The position numbers and the translations under genes were made by a program. Below are positions 3,335 through 36,600 of a DNA stretch of 64,000 nucleotides, piece after piece (position 1 is the first letter of the stretch; each line of letters starts with the position of its first letter). Origin of the DNA: Arabidopsis thaliana. Lineage: Eukaryota; Streptophyta; Magnoliopsida; Brassicales; Brassicaceae. The stretch lies in the NCBI RefSeq assembly GCF_000001735.4, contig NC_003070.9:29497971-29561970 (forward strand), read 5' to 3'. The notes under the pieces were generated by a model. The model saw nothing but the letters and a program-made list of their open reading frames with translations. It made no database searches and was not told the DNA's origin.

Positions 3335-4757
3335 AAATAGTAAAATCTACAAAAATATGATCCATTACTCATTTATATCAATATTTAAAATAAAATAAAA
3401 TCTATATATCAATATAATTCAAGATGCAAACATTTAAAATTTACCTTACAATGATGTGAGTATATGTTACCTCCTATTTTTTATGTTTTAAACCGTATAA
3501 AATTTTCATATGCTGTTGGCTGTGGAAAAAGGGAAAACATGGTTATTAACTAAAAGCCCCATTTGGGATGTTTTGATTAGAAATTTTTATCTTGAAAAAA
3601 TAAACTAAAGCCATTAGTGTTTTCTTTGTCGATGGAAAAAAAAGACATCACCTTTTGAAGAAAAAAATGACATCACCTTACTATTTTCTAGAAGCATAAT
3701 CAAAGACGATTATATTTTGTCATAACGAAATAGTGTGGGGGGACGTGCAAAATTCTACTCACGTGTAAATACTTGGTAAGTTTTCAGTAGTTTTTTCTTA
3801 GGCTGTTTCACGTGATGTAACAGGATTTCATCAAAGAAGGCGTGCTTTGACCCAATCTAATGAAAATACACTATGATTTTTGGTAATTTTAATACTTTTG
3901 ATGGTGATAGTGATATATAAATTTTAATGTTTGGTCCTTCAAGGCTGCTAGATTTTATTAACGGTCAACATGTCTTAATGATCAAAGGTCCTATCTATGC
4001 ACAAAGCCATGTGCTTTTCGATTGATCTCAGTAAATGTTGAATGATTGTTGCTTTGTATAACAAATAGTTACCTTGTTTAATATTCTCAACAATAGGTTA
4101 TAAAAATAATTATATGTAGTTAATCTTTGATTTTAAATAATTACTATTAAGTTATTTTCTTGCAGTTTCAAAATTGTTTTAAGTTTACCGTTGCTGTTAA
4201 ATTCTAAAGAATATACAGAATGCAGTAATTGTTTCATCAACAGATGTATAAAAAGTCTTTAATTAGTCAAAAAAATTCTTCATTCATAAAATTCATTGGT
4301 AAGCATTTCTAGACTAGAGCCGTAAATATTTTCGGCCAATATAATAATTAGGAAAATATTTATTAGGAATTCAACGAATATGATAAAAAACGTTGGTCGT
4401 CGAAAATGTATCATGACGTCAGGAAGAAAAAAAACAAGAAAAAAATAGGTCGTCACATATGTTTTCATGTAGGACAAGATTACGATTATAAAATCGTTTC
4501 AAAAAGAATACGAAAAAATTTACTTGAATGAGTCACTTCAGTACCCCACAGAGATTATATCTTTCTCTCTTTAATCTCTCTATAAATACCTAAGTATGCA
4601 ACTATGCATATAAATCTACAAAACATCTGAACACCCAAAGACACAGGAAGAGAGCTAAAGCTGATATATACTAAGTACTAAGATCATTTGATCAACCTAA
4701 TCATCAACACCACAAAATTTTCTTTTCTTGTTTCTCTAATCGATTAATTTAGTAATA

Positions 4758-5084
4758 ATGTCTGGAAGAGGGAAAGTGAAATCGGAGCCGATGAAGGTTG
4801 TGTTCATTAACACACAGTATGTTGAGACAGATGCTCGTAGCTTCAAGACCGTTGTTCAAGAACTCACCGGTAAGAACGCCATCGTCGCCGCCGGTCCTTT
4901 TGATTCGCCCTCTGCTTTCGACGGCCGTTGTTACGATGGCGGTAGTAAAATCGGTGAAGATACCAGACAGCTCCACGGCGGTGGCGGCGGAGGAGGACGA
5001 ATGGGGACGACGACGGAGTTCGATAGATTATTCAAAGAGATGCCTCACATGGAAGAATTGTATAAACTATGGTCAGAATATTGA
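4758..5084 (+). CDS. VQ10: VQ-motif protein (WRKY partner)
   Basis: Intronless gene of 108 residues. The VQ core FxxxVQxLTG is present as FKTVVQELTG (29-38). This motif binds the C-terminal WRKY domain of group I and IIc WRKY factors. A glycine run (residues 75-81) and an acidic, hydrophobic C-terminus follow. VQ proteins are nuclear cofactors of stress and defence transcription. A TATA-like box lies about 180 bp upstream of the ATG. The best match from memory is At1g78410, VQ10, reported to act with WRKY8; that link is knowledge of the family, not visible here. Confidence 0.93.
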   Translation: MSGRGKVKSEPMKVVFINTQYVETDARSFKTVVQELTGKNAIVAAGPFDSPSAFDGRCYDGGSKIGEDTRQLHGGGGGGGRMGTTTEFDRLFKEMPHMEELYKLWSEY

Positions 5085-25621: not shown

Positions 25622-26097
25622 AAAAGTAGATATGCTTCAAAAGGAAAACAATATTAATAAAATGATATAAATTAGAAAAAATAAAATATGGTTTGGTAAA
25701 TATAATAATAAAAAGGAAAGCATTAATGTTTCCTTCATTTGTTGACTGAAAGAGAAGAATAAACTTAAATTGTTCAAACGAAAATTAAGAAGGAAATTTT
25801 ATGAATTAGAGTTTTAATTTCAACAACAACCACACATTTTTTTTGTGTCTCCTAGTCACTTATCAACAGAAAACATATAAGCGATCCATTCTCTTACATG
25901 TAGAGAATCTGAAATCAGAAAAGCTGTTATTATATTCATTTTTCTTTTTATTCGTGTCTCTCTTCTTCACTAAAGAATATATAAGATCTTAAGTCCACGA
26001 AAGAAACTGTAATGATTTGTGTTCTATTCTATCAAAAACGATGGAATGATTTGAAAAGAGAAATCTCATCTCTCATCGCATGAATCACAAAGCCCAC

Positions 26098-26336
26098 AAG
26101 GTCAGTTTTGTTTATCTCAACAATTTTCCCTTAGTGCTTTTTAGATAAATTACACGACTAGATCTTTTAACACGTTGTCTAAATTACACTTCATTTGTTG
26201 AAGGATCGCAAAGCCCAGGAGCCTTTCGTTAGATACTACTCATCATGTCACCAGATCTATGGCCAAGGTCAGTTTTGTTTATCTCAACATATTTTCTGTT
26301 AGTGCTTTTTGGATAAAGAATTTACACGAATAGATC
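26098..26336. repeat. Diverged direct duplication (about 70 bp units)
   Basis: 26098-26166 and 26264-26336 share aaggtcagttttgttt, atctcaaca, ttagtgcttttt and tagatct in the same order with small indels. The second copy follows atggcc directly, giving ATGGCCAAG|gtcagt, which resembles a start-codon exon with a 5' splice site. No downstream reading frame was found to support a gene. Confidence 0.55.
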
Positions 26337-27059
26337 TATAATATTTTAACTAACATGATGATCTATTACAAAACCCTAAGATAGCGTATCCATATTTATT
26401 GAAATTATCTTGTTTGTTGATTGAAATGCAATTTCTAGATTTTTATACATCACAAATTCACAACAACAAGAAAAATATGCTCTTATAATAATTTCAAACC
26501 TTGCTCATAAAATATAAAATCTACTATTTTCTTGCGAAATACCGTTAAGTCTAACGGTAGATTTTGAAACTGATAGATTTAAAAGATTGAATTTTTTTTT
26601 GTTAACTATTGTAGTGGATAAAAGATCTAGAAGATATGACCTCTTGCCACTTAGATTAAATACCTGCATACATAAAGGTACACCAACTTATGATCTATCT
26701 TAAATAGAATTTGTTGGATTACAATTTGGTATGCTTCTCAAAAAAGGACAATCCTAACTTGACTTGTATAGTATACAAATCCATATAACTTTACTGTAAA
26801 ATCCCAATCATAATTTAGCAGACACTAATATATTAATTTGAATCTGCTACTGACTTGGCGAAAAGATAGAACTAGAGAAGCAAATGTCGAAGGATTTTCA
26901 ACACCTTTACTTCCTTGGGATGAAACTTCATTTGTGGAAGAGATTTACTTTTCCCAGGTTAAAGACGCGATCATGTTTCTCAGACTGATTAGTAAAATGC
27001 ACCGGATTGTGACATTGATGGTTGAGATTTCCGCATGCCATTTATTTTGATTCCTTTTT

Positions 27060-27480
27060 TTTATTCGCTTGAATCATCTGAATATTTGAAAATATTGCTA
27101 CACTTATGGACACACGTTTCTCTTTCACATATCTTTGCAAGAAAAGATGCCAAAATAGGCTTTCTAGAGGCAACATCTTTGGACGTAGATGGTACTCTTA
27201 CAGATGGTGATCGTGAAAACAAACGGAGGAGTTTGTTTGTTGTACTCGGTCTAGTTCAAACCAAAACATCTTTGCAAATATGTATGGTTTGAGCTAGACC
27301 GATGTCAACAAACAAGCTGCTTCGTTTGTATTCACCATCAACATCTTTAAGAAACGCTGCACCACTCCTCTGGAAATACTATTTCGACATCTTCTCTTAA
27401 TCTCTTTCATAGATAGGTGAAGGGGCAACATGTGTTGATAAGTGTGGGGGCAATGTTTAGATGATTTAAGCGAAAACAAA
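27060..27480. ncRNA. Long imperfect foldback with miRNA-like core hairpin
   Basis: Two colinear inverted arms (about 27060-27263 and 27285-27480) surround a 21-nt loop. In the inner 66 positions (27198-27263 against 27285-27350) I count about 55 Watson-Crick pairs, 3 G:U wobbles and no gaps. Outer parts align with indels; shared blocks read left to right include cgctt.aatcatct, cacttat, tatct, agatg, aaatag and tttc.agagg. Such foldbacks can be diced into small RNAs, and young MIR genes arise this way. Expression is unknown, so the ncRNA type is an inference. The right arm lies directly 3' of the oxidosqualene cyclase fragment on the minus strand. Confidence 0.55.
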
Positions 27481-27559
27481 GAAAATGAAGCAAAAAAAAG
27501 TGGCACGAGGTTCAAGATTAGTTGGAAGAACTAGATTGATGGGAAACAACTTTCATTGT

Positions 27560-28263
27560 TGTAGATGAGCAAAAATGTCACGATCCAAGGCATCTTACTC
27601 GTCAGTTTACACGCATATTCTCGTCCTTCATCAGGACCTTCTCTGAGTATACGCAAGCATATGTAATTCAGTGCGGTGCAGAACATAAAGCTCTTGCCTT
27701 CAACATGTAACCCCCATCCACCATCATCGTTCTGCAAATTAAGGGAGAAAAACAGAACTCATGTGAGGATCTTCTCTGGTCAAGCTTCTTCTTTAAAATC
27801 TGCTGCAAGAATACAAGGTGACGATAGATATATCGAAGAATCTCTTCACGATGCTCAGCATCAAATATCTCCTCGAGATGTCCTATGAATCTGTGATATA
27901 CAGAAAAAAAATACATGCAGGAAAATTCTCTCCGTTTCATTGATTCCTCTTCATTATCCCTTCAATTTCTTATAATTTCTCGCGCAATAGAAACCTAAAT
28001 CTCTAATTCTAACCCTAAGAGTATTCGCCGATAGACGTAAAGTAAGAATCGAAAGGAAAACGAAGAAGAAACATACCAATGGAGGAAGGAAGAAGAGAGG
28101 TCCAGTGATTTCTCCAGGCCAGTGACCATCGGAGGCCTGCAAAGTCGAGAAGAAAGAAACTCCTCTCCGTAACGCATCCGTCGCGTTTCATGAGTTGTGC
28201 TTTCGCCGTCTTCAACCTTCACCGGCGGGATCACTTGCTCCACTTTTGCCTCCAATTCAAAAA
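27560..28263 (-). pseudogene. Truncated oxidosqualene cyclase fragment
   Basis: Homologous to exons 2-4 of PEN6 in inverted orientation: [43 protein letters not shown] and [12 protein letters not shown]. The first exon and everything after about residue 200 of a normal 760-residue cyclase are missing, including the catalytic DCTAE region. Lesions visible: about +2 bases near 28250 in the exon 2 start, a one-base deletion at about 28184 (ACG.CGACGG where the frame needs one more G), and a damaged start of the next exon near 27885, where extra bases containing a TAG lie between ATCACAG and GACATC. Exon order and QW-type motifs leave no doubt of the origin. It cannot encode an active cyclase. 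Probably At1g78480, sometimes annotated as a prenyltransferase-like gene. Confidence 0.85.
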
Positions 28264-30378
28264 CTGTGCCTACAGTCAAATCAACTGAGATCAAAATAAA
28301 AACATTCTTCGCGTTGAAAAGGAAAAAAAGAAGAAAAAAAGAAAAAAAGGGAAAGGAATAAAAACATGGTGTGAGTAATTGCACATGGCCCATTAACTTT
28401 TACGGCCCGAAATTAAAAAGCTTCATTTGAATAATTGTTTTTTCTTTACATTACGAAGAATTCCTTAAAATTATTAAATAATACATTTTTTTTTTTTCCC
28501 CTTAAAAATTAAAATGATACATTATTACCCTAAAAGATGCCAATCAAAAAATAAAGAGAGCTTTTCGTTCATGTACCAATCAAAGGTGGTGTCAAATAAT
28601 TGATGATAGTTGCCGACAAAAATAAAAAAATAATTGATGATAGTCAAAGACATTACTGTTTATGAAGAAGGCTTTTCTAAAAAGCTTTTTAATTATTGCT
28701 GAAATAAAAATTTAATCTCAACTATTAAAAAAATGCGTCTTTTACGAGTGCTAATTTATATTTAAACACCGAAAATTTTCAAAAAATCTATTTGAATTTT
28801 TGATATAGTACATAGTTATAAGTTAATATAAATATTAGTCAATGCTAATGATTACTGAGTCATATGACTCATGAATATTAACGTGACATATTTTTTAACT
28901 AAATCGATGCCGTTTAGTTATTTTGAATTTAATTTTCTTTTTTAAAATTAGCAAAAATTGAATTCAAAATAGCAAAATAACGTTGGTTTAGTTGAAGAAT
29001 ATACCACGTCAATACACATGTATCATTTGACTCAACAATCGTTAGAATTGACTAACATTTGTTAACGTTAACTCATAATTACGCAATACGTCAACAGTTT
29101 AGGTAGGTTTTTTGAAAATTTTACATGTTTAGGTATAAATCAACATTTCTCGTTTATACCGATTGAAAAACACATTCTCTAAATAGTCGAGATTGAAAAA
29201 AATATTTTCCCCCATTTTCTATAATGCTATAATTTATTCTAAACAGTAGACAAACTCGTCTTTGATGCATACCAATAATATAAAATATCGAGGAGACACA
29301 TTAGTGGATCCTTCAAGGACGAGTTGGTCGATTTGAGATAAGGAAGACAATATTTATTGACCCTCTTTGGCTTTCAATTTTGTTTGCTAATGGTTAGGGT
29401 TTATTATTATTTTTGGTTTAATATGATGCAAGTTTAAATAGGTAACTCGGTTTGGTTTATTTTATTTCGTTGGTTTCGACTATCACATCGATCTATAATG
29501 TCAAATTTACAATCAAATTCTTTTAAAACTTTTTTTTTTTTATAACTTATTTTAGTTTTATAAGGAATATACGGATTTCTCAAACAAACAAGAAAAGGTG
29601 TTATTTGAACACTTGGAAAGAATTCAAATTTTTTTTATAGTAGTTTTCCCGTTAAAAGTTCACATAAAAATATATCATCAATGTAAGACGATATTCAGGG
29701 AAATTGAAGATATTGGGTGCCTGACATGTGACAATATATGACAGCTTCTGTCGGTCCTGTTTCTTGTTTGTCACATGCGATTGCTTGGGGATTGTGATTT
29801 ATAACCACACAACTTATGGTACTTTGATATATGTAAATGGCGACGATGATTTTTTTTCTGTTGATGATTGACGTATTATTGTGAATCTTGTTTTCTTTTA
29901 TATGTTTCGTCTATCTCTTACAAAATTTGTTGATTTCCAACTTTTCATCATTTTAGTTTTTGACAATTATATATGTGTAAGAGGATTGGTGAATCATCAG
30001 TGATTTTCTTACTTTTCATATGCTTTCCAACTCTTCATCATCATAAATTTTTAATATTCACACTCCCTAGACTGGTCACAGCCAAAAGATCTCAAAAATC
30101 TGACCCGGACAAGTATACTAATAAAAGGAAAAAATATTGGGAGATATAGTGTCATGCATGGTGTGCAAGAGAAAAAACTATTAATTAATGTAGCTTATTA
30201 ATCTAGAACTTGCTATATACTAGAACAATTAAAACGTGACTGAAAATTTAGTACTTAATCTCTACAACACTATAACATCCACATATATTAATTTCTTCAA
30301 TTAACCTTGATAAGAGTTAAAAAAGTAAAAAACATCGAGAAGAGTTGTAGCTGTGGTCAACACTTGAGAGGCAGCACG
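28264..30378. other. Intergenic region upstream of CYP708A3
   Basis: AT-rich DNA between the cyclase fragment and the P450 gene. It includes a 17-bp duplication around a short A-rich insert (28594-28644) and long T or A runs near 28487 and 29530. It should hold the CYP708A3 promoter. No coding segment was recognised. Confidence 0.55.
28594..28644. repeat. Short A-rich insertion with exact 17-bp direct repeats
   Basis: aaataattgatgatagt occurs at 28594-28610 and 28628-28644 without mismatch. The 17-base insert is tgccgacaaaaataaaa. Its core gccgacaaaaataa also occurs at 20114-20127, so this is a recurring tail sequence rather than random filler. Confidence 0.7.
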
Positions 30379-33675: not shown

Positions 33676-36600
33676 ATGTGGAGGCTGAAGATCGGGGCTA
33701 AGGGCGGAGATGAGACTCACTTATTCACCACCAACAACTACACCGGAAGGCAGACTTGGGAGTTTGATGCCGATGCATGCTCTCCAGAGGAACTCGCTGA
33801 GGTCGATGAAGCTCGTCAGAATTTCTCCATAAACCGATCACGTTTCAAGATCAGTGCTGATCTCCTTTGGCGAATGCAGGTAAGCTTTAATTTTAACATG
33901 CATGATGATAATGAGAAAGTTCGGGACTTGATCTCTTGGGAGACACTACCATGTTAGTTAGTTGCAGCAGTAAAACTTGCATTTGGTTGAATATAAGTTT
34001 GTGTGTTTGGATGGATTTTAATAGTTCCTGAGGGAGAAGAAGTTCGAGCAGAAGATTCCGAGAGTGGAGATAGGAGATGCGGAAAATATAACGTACAAAG
34101 ACGCAAAGACGGCACTGAGAAGAGGGATACTCTATTTCAAGGCATTGCAAGCTGAGGATGGACATTGGCCTGCTGAAAACTCTGGTTGCTTGTTCTTCGA
34201 AGCTCCCTTTGTGAGCTATTCTTCACTCTCTCTACTAATACTATACTATTCTTTTGTTTTCTATTCATTAAATATATATGTAAAGTGTAATGATATGGTA
34301 CTTTTAGGTCATATGCTTGTACATCACTGGACATTTGGAGAAAATCTTGACTTTGGAACATCGCAAAGAACTATTGCGTTACATGTACAACCATCAGGTG
34401 AACTTATTATGTAACACATTTGATCACATATAGCTTCTTTTTAGTGATAAGCCCCTCTCTGATCTTTACTATGATAGTTTTCTGACGTTAACTACGAGGA
34501 TAATTATTTTGGTTTATAGAACGAAGATGGTGGGTGGGGAATACACGTGGAAGGCCAAAGCGCTATGTTCTGCACAGTCATCAACTACATTTGCCTACGG
34601 ATTCTGGGAGTAGAAGCAGATCTTGATGATATTAAAGGAAGTGGTTGTGCAAGGGCTCGTAAGTGGATCCTCGATCACGGTGGTGCTACTTATACGCCCT
34701 TGATCGGAAAAGCTTGGTTATCGGTATTATGCATGGCGGAATACTTATTTTATTGAAAAAAAAATAGTCTTATTATTTTCGAGGAGTTTTTTTTTTCAGT
34801 TGTATCATGGATTGTTTTGTGCCAATCAGATTCTTGGAGTGTATGATTGGTCAGGTTGCAAACCAATACCGCCTGAGGTGTGGATGCTCCCTACTTTTTC
34901 GCCCTTCAACGGAGGTTCCACTTCCACATTCTATTCTATAAATTGTTATGGTTTTGTTATATTTGCTTACTGGAGTATATATATGATCGGTCCAAGCATG
35001 TCTCTAATCAACATGTTTGTTAACAGGTACTCTATGGATTTATTTCCGGGACATTTTTATGGGAGTGTCATACTTGTATGGTAAGAAATTTGTAGCTACA
35101 CCAACACCTCTCATTTTACAGCTTCGGGAAGAGCTTTATCCTCAACCTTATGACAAAATCTTATGGAGTCAAGCTCGCAATCAGTGCGCAAAGGTAAAAA
35201 GTTGAAAAGTACATGAGACCAATGAAGTATCACATAATAATAATAATAAATGACATGATGCAGGAAGATCTCTACTATCCACAGTCATTTTTACAAGAAA
35301 TGTTTTGGAAATGTGTTCATATATTGTCAGAGAATATCCTGAATCGATGGCCTTGCAACAAGCTTATCAGGCAAAAAGCTCTTCGAACCACAATGGAACT
35401 TCTTCATTATCAAGATGAAGCCAGCCGTTACTTTACCGGTGGATGTGTGCCTAAGGTAAAATTTCCTCAATATACCGTATTAGTACAAATCATAACTAGT
35501 ACTATAACACTGTTCTTTGATTTTTGATATATAGCCGTTTCATATGCTTGCTTGTTGGGTAGAAGACCCCGACGGTGATTATTTTAAGAAACATCTTGCT
35601 CGAGTCCCGGATTACATATGGATTGGGGAGGATGGTCTGAAAATCCAAGTTAGTCATAAACTAAAGAGTATATATATTTTTTACTCTGTTTTGAAAATGT
35701 TGAGTTTTTAAATTAGAGAATGTCATTTGGTGCAGTCTTTTGGTAGCCAACTGTGGGATACAGCATTCTCACTTCAAGTCATGTTAGCTTATCAAGATGT
35801 TGATGACGATGATGATGAGATTAGATCAACGTTAATCAAAGGATACAGTTTCTTGAATAAATCTCAGCTTACACAAAATCCTCCTGGTGACCATAGAAAA
35901 ATGTTGAAAGACATTGCGAAAGGAGGATGGACATTTTCGGACCAAGACCAAGGATGGCCTGTTTCGGATTGTACTGCTGAGAGTTTAGAGGTTCTGACTC
36001 CAATGGTTATTAGTTTTTTAATTAAAGTACCCTTTTACCATCAATCAACTAACATTTGAGGATTAAACGCGGTTTACACTTGGCTGGCCAGTGTTGCCTT
36101 GTCTTTGGAAGCATGCCATCGGAGTTGATTGGCGAGAAAATGGATGTAGAGAGGCTCTATGATGCCGTTAATTTACTTCTCTATTTTCAGGTATTATAAT
36201 TTTATAACCAAAACTCCACAACGGCTAGTGATTAGTGATATTAATTTGTTACAAAATTTTAACAGAGCAAAAATGGAGGTATAACAGTGTGGGAGGCAGC
36301 TCGTGGAAGAACATGGTTAGAGGTAGTTATTTTAATTTGTCTTACTAGTTTGTGTTTTTTAGTGTAATACTAATGGCTCAAAATAAATTTCAGTGGCTTA
36401 GTCCAGTGGAGTTTATGGAAGACACAATCGTCGAGCATGAGTACTATCTTTACCACATCAATTTTTTTGTTTTCTTTTCTTTTGAAAAATGAATGATTTA
36501 TACTATGGAATATATGGAGCTTTGTTTAGGTATGTAGAATGTACGGGGTCAGCGATAGTGGCATTGGCTCGGTTCTTGAAGGAGTTTCCGGAGCACAGAA

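Follow-up and report, generated by a model that had tools for sequence, protein, structure and literature searches.

What is the long inverted repeat that lies beside a broken triterpene cyclase in the Arabidopsis thaliana genome, and which sequence gave rise to its arms? An earlier note, made from the sequence alone, read the repeat as a young MIR gene with a miRNA-like core. The window analyzed here is the whole stretch of 64,000 nucleotides around it (C1:29,497,971–29,561,970), and positions below are those of the window unless a chromosome is named. Genome searches covered 119,662,809 bases in 7 contigs and scored the best candidates only.

The foldback and its microRNAs

The inverted repeat is confirmed, and it is strong. 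Its gap-free core consists of two 68-nt arms, 27196–27263 and 27285–27352, which are 84% complementary and separated by 21 nt. This agrees with the 66 gap-free positions at about 83% counted before. The whole window contains 55 inverted-repeat pairs of at least 30 nt, and in a list of 25 of them the core pair stands fourth. The earlier note had proposed folding 27040–27500 on both strands, and a strong hairpin is seen on each: −198.9 kcal/mol with z −16.5 on the plus strand and −180.1 kcal/mol with z −18.8 on the minus strand, with 0 of 100 shuffled sequences folding as well in either case. The inner region, 27190–27358, gives z values of −14.1 (plus) and −12.6 (minus), and none of 200 shuffles per strand was as good. 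The core pairing is clearly better than that of shuffled sequence, the comparison on which the proposal had been staked.

The inverted repeat is larger than the two arms of about 200 bp described earlier. The palindrome extends over about 770 bp, almost double the earlier range, with the left arm at 26839–27273 and the right arm from 27276 to about 27610. Self-comparison of the palindrome aligned 510 columns at 69%. The minimum free energy of 26839–27612 is −293.5 kcal/mol on the plus strand and −265.0 kcal/mol on the minus strand, with 73% and 71% of bases paired, respectively. The 21-nt spacing had been taken as a loop. The spacing holds, but most of the 21 nt are paired with one another. 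In the plus-strand fold, the terminal loop is 27273–27276, at the palindrome center TTTG/CAAA near 27274, and the other unpaired bases between the core arms are 27264–27265, 27270, 27279, and 27284.

Published microRNA sequences are contained exactly in the inner foldback (27196–27352, plus strand), miR833a-5p and miR833-3p each matching once within the 64 kb. miR833a-5p corresponds to 27234–27255 on the plus strand in its 22-nt form (PMC4299684) and ends at 27254 in its 21-nt form (PMC1790633). The 22-nt miR833a-3p, as printed in PMC1790633, corresponds to 27295–27316 on the plus strand. When the 21-nt 5p was searched against the genome with up to three mismatches, five places were listed, one of them without mismatch. 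In the plus-strand fold, the pairs 27234–27314 and 27253–27295 give the 22-nt duplex a 2-nt 3′ overhang on either side, and two bases within it, 27243 and 27303, are unpaired. This pairing is identical in the three plus-strand folds (27190–27358, 27040–27500, and 26839–27612). The miRNA/miRNA* duplex of a plant MIRNA gene characteristically has 3′ overhangs of 2 nt and only a few bases unpaired, and miR833-5p/3p has this structure.

On the opposite strand, the 21-nt sequence that we take to be miR833b of miRBase matches exactly at 27314–27294. Its start, 27314, pairs with the start of miR833a-5p, 27234. The miR833b string is printed in no paper found, in either alphabet. The names ath-MIR833a and ath-MIR833b, presumably those of miRBase, are also used in the papers cited here. 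MIR833a and MIR833b overlap and were genotyped as one region (PMC10085913). They are among seven overlapping annotated MIR pairs, like MIR826a/b, MIR5998a/b, and MIR781a/b (PMC10085913). PMC1790633 designates both strands, 5p and 3p, as a miRNA pair, with sequences from both foldback strands. The figures in the available part of its table, which is without column heads, are small: 5 (2) for 3p and 2 (1) for 5p. Its statement on dcl1-7 is a general one (“most miRNAs”), without mention of miR833 in that passage. Scanned against Rfam at gathering thresholds, the whole window gave no matches.

The exact published 5p and 3p, the duplex geometry, and the overlap of MIR833a and MIR833b together indicate that the locus is ath-MIR833a/b. 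The hairpin is thus an already catalogued gene, its identity is not new, and it differs in nothing from the catalogued locus. The miRNA-like core noticed earlier is borne out, small RNAs from the arms having been published already. A plant MIR gene was read correctly, while its catalogued identity was missed. Fold, exact published sequences, duplex geometry, and parental homology were computed here, and sequencing and AGO1 association come from papers. What is added to the catalogued locus is the parental gene segment and the extent of about 770 bp.

The parental sequence of the arms

Besides its own locus, the genome search with the core reports a single place, Chr3 3,448,979–3,449,052, which is matched on both strands. 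With the 431-nt hairpin as the query, the match lengthens to 3,449,203. In the parental coordinates (L004, where 4480–4999 corresponds to Chr3 3,448,979–3,449,498, the end being approximate), blastn aligns the left arm with 4480–4999 and the right arm, up to window position 27580, with 4480–4814. Based on blastn, genome searches, and MAFFT, the left arm (26839–27273) copies the exon segment L004 4480–4999 of the parent in antisense, its alignment being interrupted by a gap of 74 columns. The right arm (27276–27610, outer end approximate, extended by MAFFT) copies L004 4480 to about 4853 in sense; it carries an 8-nt insertion and has several short deletions. The two arms are joined at the central TTTG/CAAA with practically no spacer. 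Identity to the same parental segment at ungapped positions is 340/435 for the left arm and 249/326 for the right arm. Conversely, a search starting from the parental exon, L004 4400–5481, reported itself and three pieces at the MIR833 locus, and nothing further in the genome at E up to 1 among the best candidates scored.

Two neighboring parental pieces match the Pfam family Dev_Cell_Death (PF10539; E 3.9e-21 and 1.1e-11), and they are taken as exons. The parental DCD-domain gene is presumably AT3G11000. Its frame, WFELDRGQTNKLLRLF, is open for 380 codons. It lies on the strand opposite to KRRSLFVVLGLVQT and KRSSLFVDIGLAQT, the related frames of the two arms that had been quoted as coding. 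The duplication of a coding segment is upheld, but those two frames read its antisense strand. Both arms are copies, on opposite strands, of one exon segment of a protein-coding gene and match it beyond the miRNA segment, as expected from the birth by inverted duplication proposed earlier. MIR161, MIR163, and other young Arabidopsis MIR genes likewise have arms resembling a protein-coding gene beyond the miRNA (PMC1790633). Unlike these, MIR833 has a DCD-domain gene as its parent.

The parent assignment and the 770-bp extent may be new, although priority is not claimed. At3g11 is absent from the main text of PMC1790633, as far as available, and MIR833 is not named among the 16 gene-similar foldbacks in the available part of its section 8. 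No paper linking MIR833 to At3g11000 or a DCD gene was found in a search outside the supplements, to which Table S3 of PMC1790633 belongs. None of the papers listed for At3g11000 is about microRNAs by its title, and none of them is among the listed papers on miR833 and Arabidopsis.

The order of events can be considered from the three-way MAFFT alignment. Outside gaps, identity is 78.2% between parent and left arm, 76.4% between parent and right arm, and 77.3% between the two arms, and the Jukes–Cantor (JC) distances are 0.258, 0.284, and 0.270, respectively. Such a near three-way split indicates that capture and inverted duplication were close in time. As the three distances are nearly equal, gene conversion between the arms is not needed. 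The 256 gap-free columns comprise 172 invariant ones, 26 in which the arms are alike against the parent, 21 changed only in the left arm, 33 only in the right arm, and 4 in which all differ. The 26 arm-shared changes are distributed 9/2/15 over the first, second, and third codon positions of the parent (chi-square p 0.008). Based on this skew, many of them probably arose on the parental side, in the coding gene, following the split. Both arms also share two 1-nt gaps, at L004 4512 and 4853. Since these are unlikelier as gains in a coding gene, they point to one captured, already non-coding ancestor or to conversion between the arms, and fit either. At a substitution rate of 7e-9 per site per year and under assumed neutrality, the arm–arm distance corresponds very roughly to 19 million years.

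The graded decay of the hairpin, best near the loop, had been considered as a possible sign of selection. As such a sign it is not supported: none of eight tests reached p < 0.05, the values ranging from 0.058 to 1.0. These tests concern substitutions only, and gapped columns (281 in the three-way counts) were dropped. Inner versus outer identity is 86% versus 77% between parent and left arm (p 0.07), 83% versus 74% between parent and right arm (p 0.16), and 83% versus 75% between the arms (Fisher p 0.19). Three-way invariant columns are 58/76 inside and 114/180 outside (p 0.058). For the miRNA duplex versus the rest, they are 18/24 and 154/232 (p 0.50), with pairwise p values of 0.62, 0.22, and 1.0. 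For substitutions, the pattern near the loop is at most a trend.

The neighborhood of the palindrome

The broken triterpene cyclase described earlier does adjoin the hairpin. The minus-strand fragment 27598–28427 abuts the right arm within about 10 nt and resembles the first (5′) part of a gene for an oxidosqualene (triterpene) cyclase, with 75.8% identity across 854 alignment columns. Its counterpart is Chr1:29,697,215–29,697,994 (L008 5995–5216; 78% in a separate comparison), a region that we take to be an oxidosqualene cyclase cluster. Among three stop-free pieces of the fragment, one matches the Pfam family SQHop_cyclase_N weakly, at E 0.00096 and with 18.9 bits where the cut-off is 26.2, and the other two are without a Pfam match. 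Because the fragment corresponds to the 5′ part of the gene and is only about 10 nt from the right arm, minus-strand transcription could, judged by the arrangement of the sequence, enter the hairpin from the cyclase side. It can be speculated further that one palindrome yields same-register microRNAs from both strands, miR833a-5p and miR833b, each antisense to the parental DCD-domain gene, and that the minus-strand precursor may be driven by the abutting cyclase 5′ end, so that the locus would combine a captured gene segment with a captured promoter. We consider this rather unlikely.

Several other repeats were observed nearby. The minus-strand cyclase-like sequence 27638–27738 has a plus-strand relative at 34513–34613 (inverted match of 101 nt, 74%), and the open frame beside the latter, 34025–34411, matched no Pfam family. 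To the left of the hairpin, 26097–26317 contains a direct duplication of about 50 nt with a spacing of 167–168 nt, its pieces being 94% and 89% identical. The genome search with the left flank, 26000–26845, reported only itself, and the literature under the neighboring names At1g78470 to At1g78480 gave only a terpenoid-gene listing. Just past the cyclase fragment is a second, longer palindrome, 28749–29145. Its arms 28830–28936 and 28954–29060 are 78% complementary, and the outer parts 28749–28826 and 29068–29145 are 74% complementary. It has 13 genome matches, 2 to itself and 11 spread over some eight other places, of which C5:10,596,670–10,597,092 is matched at nearly full length, and looks like a low-copy foldback element.

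Targets, variation, and alternative readings

Pairing between miR833 and the parental gene was scored with a penalty of 1 for a mismatch and 0.5 for G:U, doubled at positions 2–13. Without a bulge, the best penalties at sites starting in L004 4001–5500 are 10.5 for 5p, 10.0 for miR833b, and 8 for 3p. With one bulged target base, at starts in L004 4401–4600, they are 6.5, 4.5, and 14.5, respectively. The upper limit set in PMC1790633 is 4. Some microRNAs of this origin still target the parent, which is not required of them; for miR833 the best predicted penalty is 4.5 with a bulge. The bulge comes from the shared 1-nt gap at L004 4512. By such drift, through the bulge and mismatches, the parent is no longer a good predicted target, and PMC1790633 reports likewise for several of its 16 foldbacks. 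Other predicted targets are At1g77650 with penalty 3.5 (PMC1790633), At2g36890 with penalty 2.5 (PMC6784238), and an intergenic site in the Chr4 centromere region with penalty 2 (PMC5632664). The literature passages found contain no cleavage proof for predicted miR833 targets.

Published data on expression are scattered. miR833a-5p reached counts of 50 and 35 in two AGO1-IP libraries, compared with 17 for the empty vector, and is flagged as enriched (PMC6784238). miR833 is lowered in 35S:RTL1 plants, among young miRNAs (PMC4687873). Microarray changes of miR833 under fungal elicitors (PMC4299684), light and PIF effects on miR833 (PMC9776988), its entry in a light table (PMC5525271), a 2.94-fold value of miR833b in a salinity table (PMC4454879), and pseudouridylation of miR833 (PMC11832342) are also reported.

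The lineage restriction of miR833 is contested. Among the new sequences of PMC1790633, none shows conservation in rice, and in poplar only miR472 does; miR833a-5p is non-identical in 8/8 species tabulated in PMC4299684. miR833-5p was cloned from artichoke by RT-PCR, having been called Arabidopsis-specific until then (PMC3314569). That clone is weak evidence, since its primer contains 21/22 bases and the cloned sequence is largely primer (PMC3314569). A citrus list includes a miR833, the passages not showing its sequence (PMC4778066). Within Arabidopsis, MIR833 is counted as variable, with MIR833a copy losses expected in a varying number of accessions; MLPA confirmed most such predictions, and the passages on it do not name MIR833a among the exceptions (PMC10085913). 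This variability fits a dispensable young locus.

Instead of a captured gene segment, a palindrome of this size could be a foldback transposon or MITE, since similar-sized palindromes occur in such elements and the neighboring palindrome 28749–29145 belongs to a repeat family. The arms, however, match an exon of a DCD-domain gene, and whether the core, the 431-nt hairpin, or the parental exon served as the query, the best candidates scored were confined to this locus and one parental gene. Dispersed copies of 27050–27480 were not seen in the genome searches, within their sensitivity, and we give this reading hardly any credence. It is also improbable, though less so, that the locus is an endogenous inverted-repeat siRNA locus, the 770-bp palindrome being diced by DCL2/3/4 with the miR833 reads as its most abundant products. 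The folding energy and pairing over the whole of 26839–27612 would suit it, as would the overlap of MIR833a and MIR833b here (PMC10085913). Against it, the published 5p and 3p make an exact duplex with 2-nt overhangs, and both strands are named a miRNA pair (PMC1790633).

The other question is whether MIR833 is real but dying, its small RNAs doing nothing; this is compatible with the identity as ath-MIR833a/b, and we put it at a little below an even chance. The weak parental match (6.5 and 4.5 with a bulge), the duplex without significant excess conservation (p 0.50), and the variability with expected MIR833a losses (PMC10085913) all speak for it. It is countered by the AGO1 association (PMC6784238), by the responses to elicitors (PMC4299684), light (PMC9776988), and salt (PMC4454879), and by the target predictions At1g77650 at 3.5 and At2g36890 at 2.5, for which the passages found give no proof of cleavage.

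Almost certainly, then, the locus is the known, non-conserved ath-MIR833a (plus strand) and MIR833b (minus strand), originating from an inverted-duplicated exon segment of the chromosome 3 DCD-domain gene and since drifted from it. An exon segment would have been copied here by some copying mechanism and have become a head-to-head inverted duplicate with hardly any spacer. Transcripts across the palindrome, from putative promoters, would fold back; because the two copies lie head to head, the RNA has its 5′ arm antisense to the DCD-domain gene whichever strand is transcribed. Dicer, probably DCL1 by the published general rule, would cut the miR833-5p/3p duplex from the inner stem, and the duplex would then be loaded into AGO1, in line with the published association. 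The microRNAs have drifted from the parent by the 1-nt deletion common to both arms, which produces the bulge, and by two more mismatches in miR833a-5p. The locus may now be nearly dispensable.

A real microRNA gene can be picked out by a reading of the sequence only. The apparent origin from a chromosome 3 gene is a modest addition to the known MIR833 locus. If the parent is unreported, MIR833 would be one more case of inverted duplication in which the order of events is partly readable: capture, formation of the palindrome at about the same time, and then drift from the parent.
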